The notes under the pieces were generated by a model. That model was not told the origin of the DNA and did no database searches. It saw nothing but the letters and a program-made list of their open reading frames with translations. Position numbers and translations under genes: made by a program. From Pseudomonadota bacterium (GTDB taxonomy: Bacteria > Pseudomonadota > Gammaproteobacteria > Steroidobacterales > MnTg04), in contig JACZVC010000003.1 in NCBI GenBank assembly GCA_022572885.1, forward strand, positions 1-64,000: a DNA stretch of 64,000 nucleotides. Reading direction: 5' to 3'. Below are positions 170-11,568 of this stretch, one piece after another (the first letter of the stretch is position 1; each line of letters begins with the position of its first letter).

Positions 170-546
170 TGGTTGACCAAGCGGTACACATCACCGTCTC
201 TCTCGATGCTGAGCGCTCCTGCCTGACCGGCGTACTTGGGGTTTTTCAGATCCGACAGGGCAGTGAGTACCGTCGAGCGTGTCACGCTCAACTGCTCGGC
301 GATCTTGTCGATCTGCCCGACCGTCACGACACCGGCCCTTTCGAACTTGCCCCGAAGCATCGCCTTTGCGCCTTTCGGGTGGCCATTGTCCTTGGCTGAC
401 TTGGCTTTGGTCGCCTGGCCATTGGCCTGCTCAGCGAATAGTTTCTCCAGTTCGGCCTTCGGTGCCTTCGTGCGAAACATCACACCGGCCGCCCGTAGGG
501 CTTCGTGCAGTTGTACCTTCGTCATCGCTTTCATTGCTTTCATCAT
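166..546 (-). CDS. Small DNA-binding-like protein (SAP-like N-terminus, winged-helix-like C-terminus)
   Basis: The product is 126 aa. The first 40 residues (TKVQLHEALRAAGV onward) resemble a SAP-type helix-extension-helix. A lysine/alanine-rich linker follows, and residues about 70-126 look like a winged helix: a helix around VTVGQIDKIAEQL, a recognition-like helix around VTRSTVLTALSDL and a beta wing ending in DGDVYRLVNQ. A good ribosome binding site (GGAGAAAG) precedes the first ATG; a second ATG follows directly, so either may be used. It lies downstream of the capsid gene on the same strand and overlaps the next gene by ATGA. A regulatory or packaging role for DNA binding is plausible but is only an inference from fold-like patterns. 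Confidence 0.6.
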   Translation of the reverse strand: MMKAMKAMTKVQLHEALRAAGVMFRTKAPKAELEKLFAEQANGQATKAKSAKDNGHPKGAKAMLRGKFERAGVVTVGQIDKIAEQLSVTRSTVLTALSDLKNPKYAGQAGALSIERDGDVYRLVNQ

Positions 547-668
547 CTTTCTCCTCTGCTTTGTGCTTAGGTGGGTTTCTCAGACCATATGTAGCTGAGT
601 AAGCTTAGGATATGACACTTTCAGATGAAAATAAAGGGGAACGAGAAAGGAGATTCAAAGGAGAAAGT

Positions 669-705
669 CGGGGCCCGCCCCTCTGACGGGTGAGGACGGG
701 CCCCG
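669..705 (-). terminator. GC-rich hairpin downstream of capsid gene
   Basis: The arms at 669-677 and 697-705 (CGGGGCCCG and CGGGCCCCG) pair perfectly, and further GC pairing extends inward. It lies between the capsid gene and the 126-aa gene on the minus strand. The bases after it on that strand (ACTTTCTCCTTT) are only moderately U-rich, so it may be a weak terminator or an RNA-stabilising structure. The rest of the 547-818 gap holds no convincing gene. Confidence 0.45.
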
Positions 706-818
706 AAGTGCAGCCGTGCAAGCGCAGGTTTGTTTTGTACGCATCGGGCATCCACCCACGCTTGCTATGTACGACCGGCCGCTTGGCCGTTGAAGTGCGA
801 ATGCCCGTCAGCGTTACT

Positions 819-2063
819 TTATGCGCCCCATTTGACCGCTTCGATGACGGCGGCTGCAACGTCATGTCGCAAGATGAGGTCGTTCCATTGCCGCAGTCTG
901 ATGGCGGCCATGTCGCGCTCGAACAGATTCGTGTCGACGCCGTCGATCTTCACGGTCGCCGCGTTGGTGCGATCGACGCTGACTTGCGGAACATCACCAA
1001 TGACGACCTCGGAGGCATCGACCAAGATGACTTTTGATTCATCGCTACCGCCGCCCAGATCGTTCGGAATGTTGTTGGTTTCAAAAAACCTGCGGCCATT
1101 GATGGTCCCGGACTGGCGCATCTCGGTGCCGAAGACGCCCCGGTCTTCGGTGTCGCGCAGATCACGCAAGAACAATCTGGAGCGCGGTGACATGATCCAG
1201 ACAGGGGACCGCATCGGTACGTCAGCGCTGAGCAACAGCTCTTCGGCTTTACGCAAGTCCGCCTGCACCTCGGTCAGCGTAGCTGATCCGCCTGCCTGTG
1301 TAGCATTGAACACGTTGGCATCGATCGCCCAATCGGTGATGCCGCGCGGTTCGCTTTCGGTGCCGGAGCCGAACAAGAAGGCCTTGTCCTCCGCGGTGCC
1401 GATTGAAGCGAGCATATCGTCGAGCAGTATGGCGTCCACATCCACGGCGAACTTGCCGAGTTCTGACGTCAGCACAACCAGCGTTGCCAACTTATGCGCA
1501 ACGAGCGAGATCGCGCCGACTTTCATCTGGCTGGACGGGATACTCTTGCCTTCGCCCACATAGGCACTGGAGACTCCGCTGGTGATCTTCGGTGTTCGTA
1601 ATGTGCCTCGGGGAATCGGGACGAGGCGGGGGCCGATCTGGCGCACTACCGAGAACGGCGACAGCAATTCTATGACGTCGGCTGCCATTTCATCCAAAAT
1701 CAACAGCCCGCCGCCCTCGGCAGAACCTGCGGATTGGGCGGCTTTGTAGTGGGACTCAATATCGAGCGTGCGCGCCATCTCCAGTTCTCGGGTTTGGTCA
1801 CCGCCACCCGTTAGGGCACAAAGGCCGAGCCGGGCGAAGACTCGTGCCGCCTCCGGCATTTCCTGTTGTCGTCCCCGAACACGATCATCATGACGATTCG
1901 ACAGAATGGTTTGTGTGTACGATCCGGGGCCGGGGCCCTCGTCCCGCATCCGACCGATCTCCGACCGGATGGCGGGTCCGAGCCCAGCCTTCAGGGAACT
2001 CTCAATCAAAGGCACGAGCAACCGGCGTAGGTCGGCCTTTTGTTTGGCAGTAAGCATTTTCAC
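819..2063 (-). CDS. HK97-family phage major capsid protein
   Basis: The 414-aa product forms the shell of a phage-type capsid. Residues about 1-120 are a charged, helical delta-domain or scaffold-like region. From about 125 onward the typical HK97 pattern appears: a segment ending in LLSPFSVVRQIG, the strand RGTLRTPKIT, then SAYVGEGKSIPSSQ and the spine-helix region VVLTSELGKFAVDVDAILLD, the P-loop-like stretch around GSGTESEPRGI, and a C-terminal A-domain ending near RQWNDLILRHDVA. A strong ribosome binding site (AAGGAGAG) precedes ATG. The stop of the 64-aa gene lies only a few bases upstream, so the two are cotranscribed. No separate prohead protease is visible next to it, which is unusual for an HK97-type cluster. 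The family assignment is secure. Confidence 0.92.
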   Translation of the reverse strand: MKMLTAKQKADLRRLLVPLIESSLKAGLGPAIRSEIGRMRDEGPGPGSYTQTILSNRHDDRVRGRQQEMPEAARVFARLGLCALTGGGDQTRELEMARTLDIESHYKAAQSAGSAEGGGLLILDEMAADVIELLSPFSVVRQIGPRLVPIPRGTLRTPKITSGVSSAYVGEGKSIPSSQMKVGAISLVAHKLATLVVLTSELGKFAVDVDAILLDDMLASIGTAEDKAFLFGSGTESEPRGITDWAIDANVFNATQAGGSATLTEVQADLRKAEELLLSADVPMRSPVWIMSPRSRLFLRDLRDTEDRGVFGTEMRQSGTINGRRFFETNNIPNDLGGGSDESKVILVDASEVVIGDVPQVSVDRTNAATVKIDGVDTNLFERDMAAIRLRQWNDLILRHDVAAAVIEAVKWGA

Positions 2064-2526: not shown

Positions 2527-3168
2527 TCACTTCAGTGGGTCGTTTGTAGGCGTGGGCGGAAATCGGCCTGGTCCGCGACTAGCTAGACCAATGTTTGCCA
2601 TCTCGGGGTCAGAGACAAACTCAAGACCATGATCAGTCGGGTCAATCCGTAGTCCCGTTTCGTAAGTGTTGCGGACAAAATACGACTGGCCCAATGACGC
2701 CGTTTCACTCAGCAGCTCAAGCACTAACCGTTCACTAACCTCTCGTTCACTAGCCTCTCGTTCACCGATATCACTTGCAGATGCCTGGGCCTCGATTTTG
2801 ACGGCACCCATTGTGCTCCTAAAATCTATCGGGCCAATCACGACCCCCTCGTCAGTCAGCAGCAATAGCGTTATGGTGGCGTTGCGTCCCCGACTATCCT
2901 CGACATCGATAACGCCGATATTCTCACTGTCGATACGTAGTGAGACGGTAGTGCGGGCATCGACAAGTCCCTGCCCTTCGGTGATTTTGTCGATCTTACC
3001 TATCTCGCCTAGGGCCGTCCACGTCTTCCCGTCGTGTGTGATTTGATGCCCTTCCGGGCCGCTCCATAAATTCACTGTTCCGGACAGGAACTCAAACTCG
3101 CCGAGAAAGGCGATAACGATTTTATCCTTTTCCAGTTCGTCAAGAACGGCTTGCAAGAGATTGCGCAT
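2527..3168 (-). CDS. Phage tail-type protein (virion hub/assembly-like)
   Basis: The 213-aa product starts at the ATG at 3168, directly after a GGAGGT ribosome binding site; a longer open frame upstream runs antisense through the IS30 relic and was rejected. The pattern FLGEFEFLSGTVNLWSGPEG, then HDGKTWTALGEIG, then a conserved-looking VSLRIDSENI and a C-terminal stretch around DHGLEFVSDPEMANI, resembles a widespread phage tail protein family in which a short 'W-S/T-G' segment is followed by 'W-x-G-x-G' and a late 'GLE-Y/F-V'. The middle of the C-terminal half holds an unusual acidic/serine run (EREASEREVSERLV). The tail role comes from family pattern memory, not a search. Confidence 0.6.
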   Translation of the reverse strand: MRNLLQAVLDELEKDKIVIAFLGEFEFLSGTVNLWSGPEGHQITHDGKTWTALGEIGKIDKITEGQGLVDARTTVSLRIDSENIGVIDVEDSRGRNATITLLLLTDEGVVIGPIDFRSTMGAVKIEAQASASDIGEREASEREVSERLVLELLSETASLGQSYFVRNTYETGLRIDPTDHGLEFVSDPEMANIGLASRGPGRFPPTPTNDPLK

Positions 3169-3202
3169 CAGACCTCCACAGGTAATCAATTGGCAGGAGA
3201 AG

Positions 3203-3230
3203 CCTATGATGGTTCGAGTCGGTAGGGCAA
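3203..3230 (-). promoter_or_regulatory. Repeated motif TTGCCC-N16-CATAGG, copy B
   Basis: Second copy of the element motif, with identical end hexamers and 16-base spacing. CATAGG ends 34 bases upstream of the ATG of the tail-type gene, the best-placed copy for a promoter. The plus-strand reading includes GGTTCGAGTC, which mimics a tRNA T-arm, but no tRNA can be folded around it. Confidence 0.5.
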
Positions 3231-3316
3231 TGGCGAATTTTACGAGACAAACGCTGTCCGCTTTACGCCTAAAAGCTGCCGTTGCGCTAGAATGAGGCTC
3301 AGCGGCCGCTTGTGAC

Positions 3317-3585
3317 TGCGATTTCAACCGGTCGATGCAACACTTTATCGAAAACGCGGAAGATGGCGTGTATGCCAATGAATCAAAGGACTCGTCGAGG
3401 TTTCATGGCGGCAGAGAAAGCGGAGTTGTGGAACCGCTGGAATCGAGTAGGGGCGCTGAAGTCGATTGGGCGAGGATTTGGCGAACCTTCATCGTCTGTT
3501 GATCACCAGTTGGTCGCGCACGGGGGGATCGAAACCCCAGTAGAGAGGATTAACGCATGTGTTGCATCGACCGGTTGAAATCGCA
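3317..3585 (+). mobile_element. Internally deleted IS30-family element (MITE-like)
   Basis: A perfect 27-bp inverted repeat lies at 3317-3343 and 3559-3585 (outer ends TGCGATTTCAACCGG). Between the repeats is the start of an IS30-family transposase gene joined in frame to its last codons, so about 80% of the element has been lost while both ends remain. Such deletion derivatives can be moved in trans by a full-length relative. No target-site duplication was confirmed at the outer ends. Confidence 0.8.
3372..3578 (+). pseudogene. IS30-family transposase remnant (N- and C-termini fused)
   Basis: The reading frame encodes the IS30 N-terminal HTH signature: FMAAEKAELWNRW, then LKSIGRGFGEPSSSV and QLVAHGGIE. 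It then passes directly to TPVERINACVASTG and a stop inside the right inverted repeat, which matches the usual end of these transposases. The DDE catalytic domain is completely missing, so it cannot be an active transposase. The remnant could still bind ends through its HTH. Several ATG codons (3363, 3372, 3378) could start it; the choice is arbitrary. Confidence 0.75.
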
Positions 3586-3682
3586 ACCCAAAGCGGCCAT
3601 TCCCGGTCGCTTGAAAAAGTCCAGATCATGATTACCGACTGGACAAACTGTCCATTTATACTATGCTTAGGACGTATCACCG

Positions 3683-3790
3683 ACAAAGCCAAACCCACTG
3701 AAAAACGGGGACGGAAAGCCACGGGTCCTCGCTTCCTCCGAGAAGCCAAGGAACGACTCCCCGAAGGACCCAAGATCGCCGGGCTGCCAA
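3683..3790 (+). promoter_or_regulatory. c-di-GMP-I (GEMM) riboswitch ahead of secreted-protein gene
   Basis: The plus strand reads GCCAAACC, a GAAA-containing loop, GGGGACGGAAAGCCACGGG, then a stem GGGTCC/GGACCC enclosing a variable hairpin, and AGATCGCCGGGCTGCC. This is the order of conserved blocks of the c-di-GMP-I aptamer (GCAAACC, GAAA, GGGACGCAAAGCC, P3 stem, GCCGGGUUGCC). Compared with the usual sequence, the G before CAAAC is C and the C in GACGCAAAG is G, which looks like a compensated pair swap, while the preceding G expected to contact c-di-GMP is kept. The aptamer ends about 180 bases before the ATG at 3971. I see no obvious intrinsic terminator in that interval. A perfect inverted repeat TGGACA-AAC-TGTCCA lies upstream near 3639-3653. 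Confidence 0.82.
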
Positions 3791-3970
3791 AGCAATCGAA
3801 GCAACTTGACAGTGGTCGTTATAGCAGGTGAGCCATGCTACCTCAGACTTCACCAGGGCATTTCTGGACCCATTGCCAAAACCGAGCGGTGCTTCTTTAA
3901 TCCGCCGCACACTCGCCGTAGTAGGTTTGTGTTTGACGTCACTGTCGGCGGAAGCGACGAGGATTACCAA

Positions 3971-4645
3971 ATGAAAAAATCTTTATTAATACAGACTATA
4001 TCTCTATGTTTTTCGATTCTTTTTCTTTCTTTCACGACGCTATATGCCCAATCCCAAAAAGAGTTTAAAACGTACGAAGGACATAAACAGCAGTTCCTTA
4101 TAGATATACCAGAGGGGTGGTTCGTGCATGATCAATGGGAGGCTATTACAGGTATGTCAAGTCCAACTGGGATGGTTTTTTTCACGAAAGAGAATATAGC
4201 CAAGATCAAGATGAGTGCCGAGACCGAGGAGGAGCTCCTTGCTGGACTTGAAGCCATGGCAAGAATTGATATTGGAGATATGCCATCATTCTTTGTTGAT
4301 AGACATCCGAAGAATAAAAGAATGAGTTGCGGTCATTTTGAAAAGAAAGAAACAAAATCAGTAACAAAAATGCTTAAGAAAGACAGTATGTTTGACCGCG
4401 ATCGGAAGGTTATAAGCCCCTTGACAGCAACCCCGATTTCATTTGGAGGATGTAAAGGAATTAGATTAAAGGGAGAGACTGAGAAACAAAATGGCACTAG
4501 ATGGGTTATGGACGTACACGCAGTTTCAGACGGAGAAATCCTGTACCTATTTTCTTTAAGGAATATTAAGGAGAATTATGAGAAAAATCTAAGCGTCTAC
4601 GAAAAAGCAATGTCTACAGTAAAATTGACTTCGGGTGAAGGATAG
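3971..4645 (+). CDS. Secreted protein of unknown function, A+T-rich, riboswitch-controlled
   Basis: The product is 224 aa. It begins with a clear signal peptide: MKKS, then a hydrophobic core and a cleavage region around LYAQS. The mature part is mixed alpha/beta, with a start FLIDIPEGWFVHDQ like PsbP-type or similar 'invasion/stress' secreted domains, a cysteine in MSCGHFEK and another in FGGCKGIRL, and a C-terminal strand-helix VYEKAMSTVKL. A longer open frame begins at 3806, but the ATG at 3971 has GAGGA before it and gives the signal peptide. Codon use is visibly A/T-rich compared with the G+C-rich neighbours, so it was probably acquired separately. Together with the upstream c-di-GMP-I aptamer it looks like a transferred regulatory cassette. 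I do not recognise a specific function. Confidence 0.75.
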   Translation: MKKSLLIQTISLCFSILFLSFTTLYAQSQKEFKTYEGHKQQFLIDIPEGWFVHDQWEAITGMSSPTGMVFFTKENIAKIKMSAETEEELLAGLEAMARIDIGDMPSFFVDRHPKNKRMSCGHFEKKETKSVTKMLKKDSMFDRDRKVISPLTATPISFGGCKGIRLKGETEKQNGTRWVMDVHAVSDGEILYLFSLRNIKENYEKNLSVYEKAMSTVKLTSGEG

Positions 4646-8300: not shown

Positions 8301-8650
8301 CTGTCTACCTCCCTCACCACCAGCCAATCACAGCAACCGGGCCATGGCCTTCCAATCATGACCATGAACGGGACCGACTACCATGCCCTCCATGGCCTAT
8401 CTATCCTCTATCCTTTGCTCGGGAACCGAGTCACCTAACCGGCCCCATCCACCTACCCCCTTACCGTCTCCCGCCGTATTACTAATGGCATTTGGTCAAT
8501 TCCTTTCAATAACATGAGGTTCTCGTCGATTTCCGGATTCTCTCCGTACGTCAAAATCCCATTAGTTATTTATTATCTTTAGGTAGTTCGTCACAGCCTA
8601 AACAAGTCCGAGATGCAGTTCCGCCGACACCCTCCTAAGACCATAAATAA
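8301..8650. other. 350-bp interval between two minus-strand genes
   Basis: No gene with a credible start is visible. The left part is C-rich on the plus strand. The right part is A+T-rich and contains the left arm of a 15-bp inverted repeat (8559-8573), whose right arm overlaps the end of the polymerase-like gene. Confidence 0.5.
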
Positions 8651-8657
8651 CTAATGG
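8559..8657. repeat. 15-bp perfect inverted repeat around the end of the polymerase-like gene
   Basis: CCATTAGTTATTTAT at 8559-8573 is the exact reverse complement of 8643-8657; 69 bases separate the arms. The right arm contains the stop codon of the polymerase-like gene, so its transcript would end in a long stem-loop. A shorter related string ACTAATGG occurs at about 8481. It could serve as a transcript-end structure or be a trace of a small insertion. Confidence 0.6.
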
Positions 8658-10159
8658 AGTTTGCTACGATTCGCCGGGTTGTATGACCACGGTCCCTTAA
8701 TCGGGCAGGTGAAGCCGTCATTGTGTTTTTGATACGTCTCGTCCATGACCTGCCAGAGTTCCTCAGCATGACTATCCTGTACGATGAAGCTGTCATGAAC
8801 CGGAATGATCGGGACACCCCGTTTCGTGAAATGCCAAACGACATCGAGTGCGATACGGGCATCCTTGTTCATCAACTTCATTCCGATGTCGGAGCCAAAG
8901 TAGTGTGCGATCGGAGAGTGCGCTTTTGCAAACGCCTCGATAAGCACTCGGGCCTTGCTGATGCCGAGACGGCGGAGATATCGGCTCTCGGCATAGTGTT
9001 TGTACAGCCACTCGTTGACACTGCTCTGGGCCGTGTTAACTGAGGGCGAGTCGAGCAGAGCAAGCAGCGCTGTCTTGAACAACGGCCGGGAGCGTCTGCG
9101 GGCTTCTTCGCTCCATCCGAAACCTCCGGGAATCCTGTCGATGGCATCGCTGTATGGATCACCTTCGTACTGCTTACCCTCGGCGGCATATAGCATTCGT
9201 GGATGGAGCCCCGAGTAATCCAACTCCACAACAGGTTGCCCGTCAATCGTGATGGTATGACGGTCTGTCTTCGATAACCCTTGCGCGTGTCGGTAGCCAC
9301 AACTGTGCAGACGGCCGTAGTGGTCAAAGTCGCCGATGAAGATGGCCTTCATGGCCGTATGCAGCTCGTAACACACGCCATTGTCATAGTAGGCGATGCG
9401 TGCATCCCCGTTGATCGCATTGGCACGGGCTAGCTTCTTGCGCCACCCTCGCGTCAACGGAGTTTCCTCATATAGGAGAAGTTTGAGTCCGCCCCGACGT
9501 TGTGCTCGCCGCTTTGCGTCCCCAGTTAGATCGCGATTTCGCGCGGCTCGCAATTCAACCAGCTTGGCTGGAGGCCTCACTACAACCTCACGGCACAATT
9601 CCGGATGATCCGCTAGCAGAGCGGGCGCCGCCCAAATTCGTGTCTTCCTTCCCTTGTGCTCGAAATGCGATCCTTTTTTCATGTTGATTAATCCTTCGTC
9701 ATGCAGGTACTTCGTCAATCTGAGGACACGACTTGTCGGGTACTCGTATTCGGCCGGTTGATGCCAGTCGTTGTCGTTCAGCGAAATCACGACCGGCCGT
9801 GGCCGTTCGGATCGTTCGGCAGCAATCAGGTTGGCAAGCAGGATGGAGAGGTCGCGTATCCACAAGTCGCGCCGGTAGATTCTTTGACCATGCAGAAGCC
9901 GGTTCAGCACTCCCTCTACTGTGACGGGCTCCGGCAGGCTGATCGTCGGGTTGAACCAGAGAGGATTGCGGTTCAGCCATCTTCCATTTTTCTCGCGTGG
10001 AATCCGATCTCGCTTCGCATTGGCCTTGACACCTTCGGTAAGCCTTCTTTTCCTTTCACCTGTATAATAAGCCATCGGTCTCTTGCTCCGTACTTGATTC
10101 CGGTACGGCGTCCCGCTCAGTGACGGGCGGGGTGCCACTTTCAACCTTTCTGCATCCAC
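8651..10159 (-). CDS. Family-A-type polymerase-like protein of mobile element
   Basis: The product is 502 aa from the GTG at 10159 (AGGA close upstream) or 474 aa from the ATG at 10075. Residues about 140-165 (TSRVLRLTKYLHDEGLI) look like a winged helix. The C-terminal half carries the order of family A polymerase motifs: GRLHS (about 282-286, like TGRLSS), motif A DYSGLHPRMLY (about 314-324), motif B RPLFKTALLALLDS (R358, K362) and motif C PVHDSFIV (D456). Both metal-binding aspartates and the motif B Arg/Lys are present. The residue equivalent to the Glu steric gate in motif A (SGLE in T7 DNA polymerase) is His, and motif B ends in DS rather than YG. No exonuclease domain is present. It could be a replicase, a primase-like enzyme or a single-subunit RNA polymerase relative; similar proteins occur in proteobacterial mobile elements, but their function is not known to me. 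Confidence 0.7.
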   Translation of the reverse strand: MDAERLKVAPRPSLSGTPYRNQVRSKRPMAYYTGERKRRLTEGVKANAKRDRIPREKNGRWLNRNPLWFNPTISLPEPVTVEGVLNRLLHGQRIYRRDLWIRDLSILLANLIAAERSERPRPVVISLNDNDWHQPAEYEYPTSRVLRLTKYLHDEGLINMKKGSHFEHKGRKTRIWAAPALLADHPELCREVVVRPPAKLVELRAARNRDLTGDAKRRAQRRGGLKLLLYEETPLTRGWRKKLARANAINGDARIAYYDNGVCYELHTAMKAIFIGDFDHYGRLHSCGYRHAQGLSKTDRHTITIDGQPVVELDYSGLHPRMLYAAEGKQYEGDPYSDAIDRIPGGFGWSEEARRRSRPLFKTALLALLDSPSVNTAQSSVNEWLYKHYAESRYLRRLGISKARVLIEAFAKAHSPIAHYFGSDIGMKLMNKDARIALDVVWHFTKRGVPIIPVHDSFIVQDSHAEELWQVMDETYQKHNDGFTCPIKGPWSYNPANRSKLH

Positions 10160-10283: not shown

Positions 10284-10676
10284 CTATTGAACGGATGGTG
10301 AGCTCGGCGCATTCTGTGCCGGCACGATGCCAAGCTCCCGAAGCAGCTCTCGCATCGCGGTTTCGGGCGATTCTCCCGTCGCGCGCCTGAACGCAAACAC
10401 CAGTGGCGGGCCTAACAGCTTGACGAGTTGGCGCTCTTGCGCATGAGCGGCACCGTCTTGCGCTTCCACGAGCAGGCAGAGAAGTATCTCCAAATAGGAA
10501 AGCCCGTAGTTCTTGGCGAGTGTTTCGAGCGTGGGTCGGATCAGCTGGCGCGGCCCGTCCAGCGCGGCAAGGAACTTTGCAACTGCCGATGCCTCGGCCT
10601 TGTCTGAGCCGCGCGGAAACTTGGTCCGTATCATCGTAGCTCCGTTGTCGGGTGCGGTTTCATTCTTGCGTCGCAT
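10284..10676 (-). CDS. Hypothetical element protein
   Basis: The product is 130 aa with a basic polar start and a helical domain of about 80 residues (FLAALDGPRQLIRPTLETLAKNY in two pieces, LEILLCLLVEAQDG, ERQLVKLLGPPLVFAFRR, TAMRELLRELG). A strong AAGGAGG ribosome binding site precedes the ATG at 10676 and lies inside the end of the 73-aa gene, with which it overlaps by 17 bases. The two are therefore a coupled pair next to the comM junction. No family recognised; helical content would suit a regulatory role. Confidence 0.55.
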   Translation of the reverse strand: MRRKNETAPDNGATMIRTKFPRGSDKAEASAVAKFLAALDGPRQLIRPTLETLAKNYGLSYLEILLCLLVEAQDGAAHAQERQLVKLLGPPLVFAFRRATGESPETAMRELLRELGIVPAQNAPSSPSVQ

Positions 10677-10881
10677 GTAGTCCTCCTTGCCTGAGGTAGG
10701 TGATCACGGCCGAGACGCGTGACTGAGCGTCGTCCGCGTCCTCTGGCTCTGGCGGCGCAACCAGCATCTTGTTCACCTGCTCCTTCTGTGATCGCGGTGC
10801 ATGACACAACAGTTCAACCAAGGCCACCTGTTGTGAGTCATCGACCAATACCAGCCAATTCGGCTGTGATTTGCCCATCAT
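10660..10881 (-). CDS. Small element protein adjacent to comM junction
   Basis: The product is 73 aa from the ATG at 10881 (a second ATG follows at once); AGGA lies seven bases upstream. It reads as a strand-helix start (NWLVLVDDSQQVALVELLC) followed by a helical polar C-terminus (SQKEQVNKMLVAPPEPED). Without its own start it is also the in-frame tail of the truncated ComM frame, so a 302-aa ComM fusion could be made by read-through. The element's own start with a ribosome binding site is the simpler explanation. No family recognised. Confidence 0.55.
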   Translation of the reverse strand: MMGKSQPNWLVLVDDSQQVALVELLCHAPRSQKEQVNKMLVAPPEPEDADDAQSRVSAVITYLRQGGLHATQE

Positions 10882-10895
10882 TGCGTTCCTATACA

Positions 10896-10908: not shown

Positions 10909-10926
10909 GCTAGACGCATATAGATT

Positions 10927-11568
10927 GAGGAGGCTGTGTCCACCGGCGGCCGCGATTTCCAGCGCTCGCCGCGCCAGCGATTGTCCGCGTACATCGAGCA
11001 GATCCGGCACCGGTATCGCAGACGACAGGTTTTCGGCCGGCGGGCAACGCGGCAGCGCTTGACCTCTGAAATGCTCGCAGACAGCCAGCAGGTGCGATGC
11101 GGTTCGCGCCGCCAAGCCGCTAACCAGTCCGGCCACCGCCTGGTTGCCGGTGGGAATAATCAATTCGCGGTCGCCACCGCGGGCCGCCAGCAAGGATGGC
11201 AACAGACCGCGAACCGGGTTGATCGAACCATCCAGCGATAACTCCCCATACAGCTCATAGTTGGGCAGATCGCTGGCCGGTAACTGCTTGGTCGCCGCAA
11301 GGATGGCTATCGCGATCGGGAGATCGAAGCGGCCACCTTGTTTGGGCAAGTCGGCCGGCGCCAGGTTGACCGTAATCCTGCTTACCGGCACCTCGAAACC
11401 GGCGCTTTTCAACGCCGACCGCACCCGGTCCTTGCTCTCCCTGACTGCCGTCTCCGGCAGACCGACGATATTGAGCGTCGGCAAACCACCGGACAGGAAT
11501 ACTTCCACTTTGACCGGTGGTGAATTCAGCCCTTCCAGGCCACGACAATAAATGACAGCCAGATCCAC
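10927..11568 (-). pseudogene. comM: comM (YifB, Mg-chelatase-like ATPase), disrupted by element
   Basis: ComM is a hexameric helicase that promotes branch migration during natural transformation; it is usually about 500 aa. Here residues 1-214 are present: an intact N-terminal domain with LPTLNIVGLPETAVRESKDR, ITVNLAPADLPKQGGRFDLP and YELYGELSLDGS. The frame then reaches ALEIAAAGGHSLL, where the normal protein continues into the Walker A loop (GPPGTGKT). Instead it changes to NLYASSIVKR and element sequence. All ATPase motifs are missing, so the helicase is lost unless the element excises precisely. The remaining part of comM should lie at the far end of the element, outside the window. Confidence 0.88.

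Follow-up and report, generated by a model that had tools for sequence, protein, structure and literature searches.

A divPolA2-like family A polymerase with a predicted winged-helix domain, carried by an integrative element in comM

On balance, the minimal family A polymerase described here, a divPolA2 homologue with a winged-helix-like domain, appears to be the replication gene of the integrative element that carries it, serving as initiator and primase/polymerase at an adjacent origin; the copying of the element's own DNA is probably started or primed by this protein. The gene lies in a window of 64,000 nucleotides, the whole stretch of DNA that was analysed. The family itself is known, and what is new is the winged-helix-like N-terminal domain, the setting in an element that splits comM and the repeats at the 3' end of the gene. 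Together, the winged-helix front end, the compact integrative element and the nearby repeats offer a concrete and testable function for divPolA2. This phage family, which large phages of Vibrio and Aeromonas commonly encode (ICP1 of Vibrio cholerae is one of them), is here linked to chromosomal mobile elements. Moreover, the unusual steric gate of the protein turns its choice of sugar into a direct biochemical question.

Table 1. Features of the window, in order of position
Feature	Position	Strand	Basis or remark
HK97-type major capsid gene, in same insert	819..2063	minus	PF05065, E=4e-37
Tail protein gene (baseplate hub N-terminal part), same insert	2527..3378	minus	phrog_2048, E=3e-18
Repeat ATTACTAATGG, candidate origin or binding site	8478..8488	plus	one of three matches in 64 kb with at most 1 mismatch
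Repeat ATAACTAATGG, arm of a 21-nt inverted repeat	8559..8569	minus	window repeat search
Repeat ATAACTAATGG, overlaps polymerase gene end	8647..8657	plus	window repeat search
Family A-like polymerase ORF	8651..10159	minus	502 codons counted from GTG
Motif C VHDSFI, catalytic D456	8783..8800	minus	relatives' alignment
Fingers motif B R358-PLF-K362	9074..9088	minus	relatives' alignment
Motif A ELDYSGLHPR, catalytic D314	9197..9226	minus	D314 in 49/49 relatives
Steric-gate position H319	9203-9205	minus	His in 31/49 relatives
Beta-hairpin Arg R283 (GRLHS)	9311..9313	minus	kept in 48/49 relatives; pairs with TGRLSS of Pol I
N-terminal winged-helix-like domain (residues 97-178)	9626..9871	minus	model, profile, Foldseek
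130-aa gene upstream of polymerase	10284..10676	minus	same order in L072; no known family
Small element gene	10660..10884	minus	homologous to 110-aa ORF of L072; in frame from comM fragment
comM N-terminal half	10926..11568	minus	interrupted at 10926

The integrative element and its surroundings

The polymerase gene is carried by an integrative element that split comM. The N-terminal half of comM lies in the window and its C-terminal half on another contig of the same genome (C40), where its neighbours are a large serine recombinase and a tyrosine recombinase. Joining the two flanks in silico, which was done only to display the empty site, gives a single open frame of 498 aa, and comM is intact across the junction in all four congeners. 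The split gene, the flanks that rejoin, the intact congeners and the recombinases at the other flank thus bear out the suggestion, made in the original prediction, that the gene belongs to a mobile element. Because the contigs with the two comM halves (C3 and C40) do not meet, and the end of C40 (L080 1-870) is 85-91% identical to window 201-1031, which holds the end of the capsid gene and the small gene after it, the comM insert may be composite or duplicated.

Few phage genes can be recognised in the insert, which is a mosaic, and its tail gene is possibly truncated. These features are what speaks for regarding the polymerase as an inactive remnant in a decaying prophage, a reading we consider highly improbable in view of its fully intact catalytic residues, its 502 open codons and a dN/dS of about 0.41 against a relative in another genome, locus L072 (189 codons, few changes). 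Within the insert, a c-di-GMP-I-GGC riboswitch (RF03167, 62 bits) is located at window 3679-3792 on the plus strand and precedes a 279-aa ORF (3806-4645), on the strand opposite to the phage-like genes. Short dispersed repeats, partly inverted, occur at window 3316-3371 and 3554-3598 and on contig C18 (L081 14868-14923 and 16167-16211).

At locus L072, genes for proteins of 110 and 143 aa and for the polymerase are found in a different element, which adjoins icd and carries an integrase and AlpA of its own, the 143-aa gene being a homologue of the 130-aa gene upstream of the polymerase in the window. Given that codons 60-160 of the two polymerase genes are near-identical, with 6 differences in about 300 positions, the sequences suggest a recent exchange. 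More widely, a gene of the integrase cluster is nearby in 18 of 23 other non-phage loci and a gene of the resolvase cluster in 7 of the 23, where the clusters were built by BLAST linkage and representatives checked by Pfam. A conserved protein of 233-258 aa is encoded close to the polymerase gene in L018, L090, L094, L095, L096 and L097; the one of the six that was scanned had no Pfam match, and the protein is a possible stand-alone partner of the polymerase.

At the 3' end of the polymerase gene, a stretch of 180 nt holds three copies of ATWACTAATGG, and the rest of the 64 kb has none with one mismatch allowed. Since the pattern was read off these same repeats, the accompanying statistic (three matches anywhere in the window were reached by 3 of 100 shuffles) is post hoc. 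Among 25 non-phage loci, a repeat excess above all 100 shuffles was seen downstream of the gene in five and upstream in none, and repeats were found in none of the 11 phage loci surveyed. At the locus L100 the excess takes the form of a tandem array, 4.5 copies of a 21-bp unit that lie about 20 nt 3' of the polymerase gene. Two other cases of repeat excess were rejected as origins, the one in L093 because it lies in an apparently coding stretch and the one in L094 because it is partly a hairpin. Upstream of the polymerase gene in the window, no unusually stable RNA was detected.

Family membership, catalytic motifs and the steric gate

The coordinates 8651-10159 given for the gene in the original prediction are correct; the strand is minus, so that the gene runs from 10159 to 8651. 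Given that the first ~60 codons are variable, with frame-breaking gaps relative to the closest relative, the true start is probably 3' of the GTG at 10159, the candidate being the ATG at 10075 (residue 29).

Single-sequence searches of Pfam, NCBIfam, PADLOC and the PDB with the polymerase gave no useful match. It is matched by PHROG 4756 (function unknown; E 4e-53), as are 33 of 34 aligned relatives. Searches by tblastn returned 167 phage records, mainly from Vibrio, Aeromonas, Shewanella and Pseudoalteromonas phages of 110-145 kb and with ICP1 ORF100 among them, and also three plasmids. Of the genomes sampled, 24 of 398 from the phylum and 5 of 369 from the class proved to have family members in profile searches, the own genome included, and a genome search revealed a paralogue of the polymerase in the same genome. 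In the phages ICP1 and ICP1_2011_A, versions from different subclades occupy the same locus (ORF100); these divergent polymerases are encoded at L012 4987-6654 and L013 5299-6603, with a HigA gene upstream in one.

The motifs GRLHS, DYSGLHPR, R358-PLF-K362 and VHDSF do follow the order and spacing of family A, as had been proposed, and are conserved over 49 aligned relatives. R300, D314 and Y336 are each invariant (49/49), R358 is kept in 47 of the 48 relatives that have a residue at this position, K362 and D456 are each kept in 48 of 48, and for D334 in the fingers the alignment shows D 38 times and E 7 times among the 49. A profile of 18 relatives matches DNA polymerase I (E=0.005) over a span that includes motifs A, B and C. 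As the HHalign P-values are weak (0.039 for Pol I, with unrelated controls scoring 13-14), this comparison is useful for the motif register, in which GRLHS falls on TGRLSS of Pol I, DYSGLHPR on DYSQIELR and RPLFKTALLALLDS on the O-helix, whose last residues are LIYG. An exonuclease domain is absent, in agreement with the earlier reading.

The original prediction had also singled out a His in place of the Glu at the steric gate and a DS in place of the YG of motif B. His is indeed present at H319; it is, however, the family norm rather than an anomaly, the 49 relatives having H (31), F (6), G (4), Y (3), M (2), E (2) or N (1) there. The DS is likewise real and is this protein's own variant, the family having mostly N-A or F-A. 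The sugar-selecting residues E710 and F762 of Pol I are replaced in the polymerase and rarely kept in its family. Bulky gate residues exclude the 2'-OH in other polymerase families and, by analogy, His, Phe, Tyr or Met at the gate could still do so. Since His is the norm and most of the other residues are bulky, the altered gate, at best a weak argument, gives no reason to expect RNA synthesis.

A single-subunit RNA polymerase, with a winged helix that binds promoters and a palm that transcribes element genes or makes RNA primers, was an option considered for divPolA2 by Yutin et al. (PMC11348598), and we regard it as unlikely here. Motif C reads HDSF as in T7 RNA polymerase, a likeness that was rightly pointed out before, and the replaced E710 and F762, the weak matches to the RNA polymerase phrog_414 and an HHalign score of 44 to T7-like RNA polymerases, on motif C, lie on the same side. 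However, the gate is mostly a bulky His and not Gly, and where T7 RNA polymerase has Tyr639 this protein has Asp and its family mostly Asn or Phe. The fold matches in the PDB are DNA polymerases, and at 502 aa the protein could hardly accommodate the parts that give T7 RNA polymerase its promoter specificity.

Predicted structure and proposed role in replication

The AlphaFold2 model, built on 34 sequences (the window protein and loci from genome and contig searches), has a pLDDT of 79 overall and >90 over most of the palm. Structure prediction, named beforehand among the checks on the assignment, returned a palm fold, and each of the top 50 Foldseek matches of the model in the PDB is a DNA polymerase of family A, with a best E of 6.6e-6 and with TM-scores (0.22-0.32) that are low because mainly palm and fingers are expected to align. 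In a viral structure library, phage proteins of the same family rank first, including one from the barbavirus Barba31A. Before the palm the model has a helix at 234-252, and a clear pair of antiparallel helices, as in the thumb of TV-Pol, was not made out. Overall, profile, structure and catalytic conservation uphold the view of a family A palm polymerase that lacks an exonuclease.

The N-terminal domain has the DSSP order H-E-H-H-E-E in the model. It shows weak profile matches to PadR, GntR/FadR and MarR proteins, several of which lie in the helix-wing part, and, folded alone, its top 50 Foldseek matches are mostly winged helix-turn-helix regulators, none with E < 0.001; those to PadR, MarR and LmrR-type proteins each have E > 0.02. 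Taken together, model and sequence make a winged helix-turn-helix, predicted to bind DNA, likely but not proven.

Given the near-invariant catalytic residues, the palm model, the winged-helix signals, the mobility of the element, the 3' repeats and the precedent of CCPol, a role in replication is favoured, and the replicase-primase put forward in the original prediction is a plausible and the preferred reading. Once the element has excised or phage induction has occurred, the winged-helix domain would bind the repeats adjoining its own gene; the palm, with D314 and D456, would then polymerise on the exposed strand to yield a primer or short strand, which a host or helper-phage replisome could extend. 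A stronger form, in which one protein combines the functions of a plasmid Rep and a primase, its winged helix reading the iteron-like 3' repeats and its minimal palm starting synthesis there, is more doubtful, although it deserves some weight.

Several observations count against a replication role. The repeats occur in a minority of loci only and were noticed after the fact; no helicase or SSB was identified by a Pfam search of the genes near the polymerase, unlike the CCPol system; and E710 and F762 are replaced. Further, the neighbourhoods of phage members are variable and lie away from replication genes, and since a primase/helicase and a DNA polymerase are annotated in ICP1 as well (PMC11348598), the family member would not be the sole replicase there. 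The variable neighbourhoods would also suit an accessory or defence polymerase carried as cargo, acting in repair or in DNA synthesis that harms competing phages, as would the two copies in several phages, the HigA or XRE-type gene that closely precedes the polymerase gene in two phages, the restriction-modification-like genes near some relatives (judged by sequence only) and the swapping of divergent versions at one locus among ICP1 isolates. Yet no defence family was matched beyond single weak hits, no toxin-antitoxin partner was seen in the comM element, and the integrase-linked distribution agrees with a replication role; cargo of this kind seems improbable to us.

Comparison with known systems

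T7-like RNA polymerases share the HDSF motif C and the family A palm. They differ, in a comparison based on the deposited T7 record, by Gly at the gate, where the window protein has H319 and its family mostly His, by Tyr639, which corresponds to D370 here and mostly to Asn or Phe in the family, and by a dissimilar N-terminal domain.

CCPol of SCCmec, an enzyme assigned to the TV-Pol group, synthesises primers de novo together with MP, used only dNTP under the authors' conditions and keeps the equivalents of E710 and F762 (PMC7581432, PMC10061031). CCPol-MP and the PolA-SSB primases resemble the present case in that a mobile element carries their family A catalytic domain; the MP/SSB and helicase partners of CCPol and its E710/F762 equivalents were not seen at the window polymerase. 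Most features of the TV-Pol family (Iyer, Abhiman and Aravind, 2008; PMC2579912) are found: the hairpin Arg, two metal-binding Asp, the fingers Asp and RxxxK, the lack of a nuclease, integrase or resolvase genes in the neighbourhoods of relatives, and recombinases at the other flank of the comM insert. The D5 helicase, a point of difference, was not recognised near the window polymerase, and the family profile found nothing in the Microcystis phage Ma-LMM01, a published TV-Pol carrier.

By sequence, the polymerase is a homologue of divPolA2, the divergent phage PolA of Yutin et al. (2024; PMC11348598), and the family counts as already described because AUR84708, the modelled divPolA2 representative, is among its matches (hit H34, tblastn E 6e-9). 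The likeness extends to sequence and fold, with a palm that has intact catalytic residues and no exonuclease, an N-terminal globular domain in place of the standard thumb, and several copies per genome. divPolA2 was described from tailed phages that encode a regular DNA polymerase as well, whereas the window gene sits in an insert in the chromosome that also contains capsid and tail genes; in a tree with poor deep support, the window protein falls outside the clade (support 83) that unites the phage members with one chromosomal sequence. Phage origin is where the family was found and is no requirement for homology. Finally, the N-terminal domain, left unassigned in that study (PMC11348598), here reads as a winged helix.
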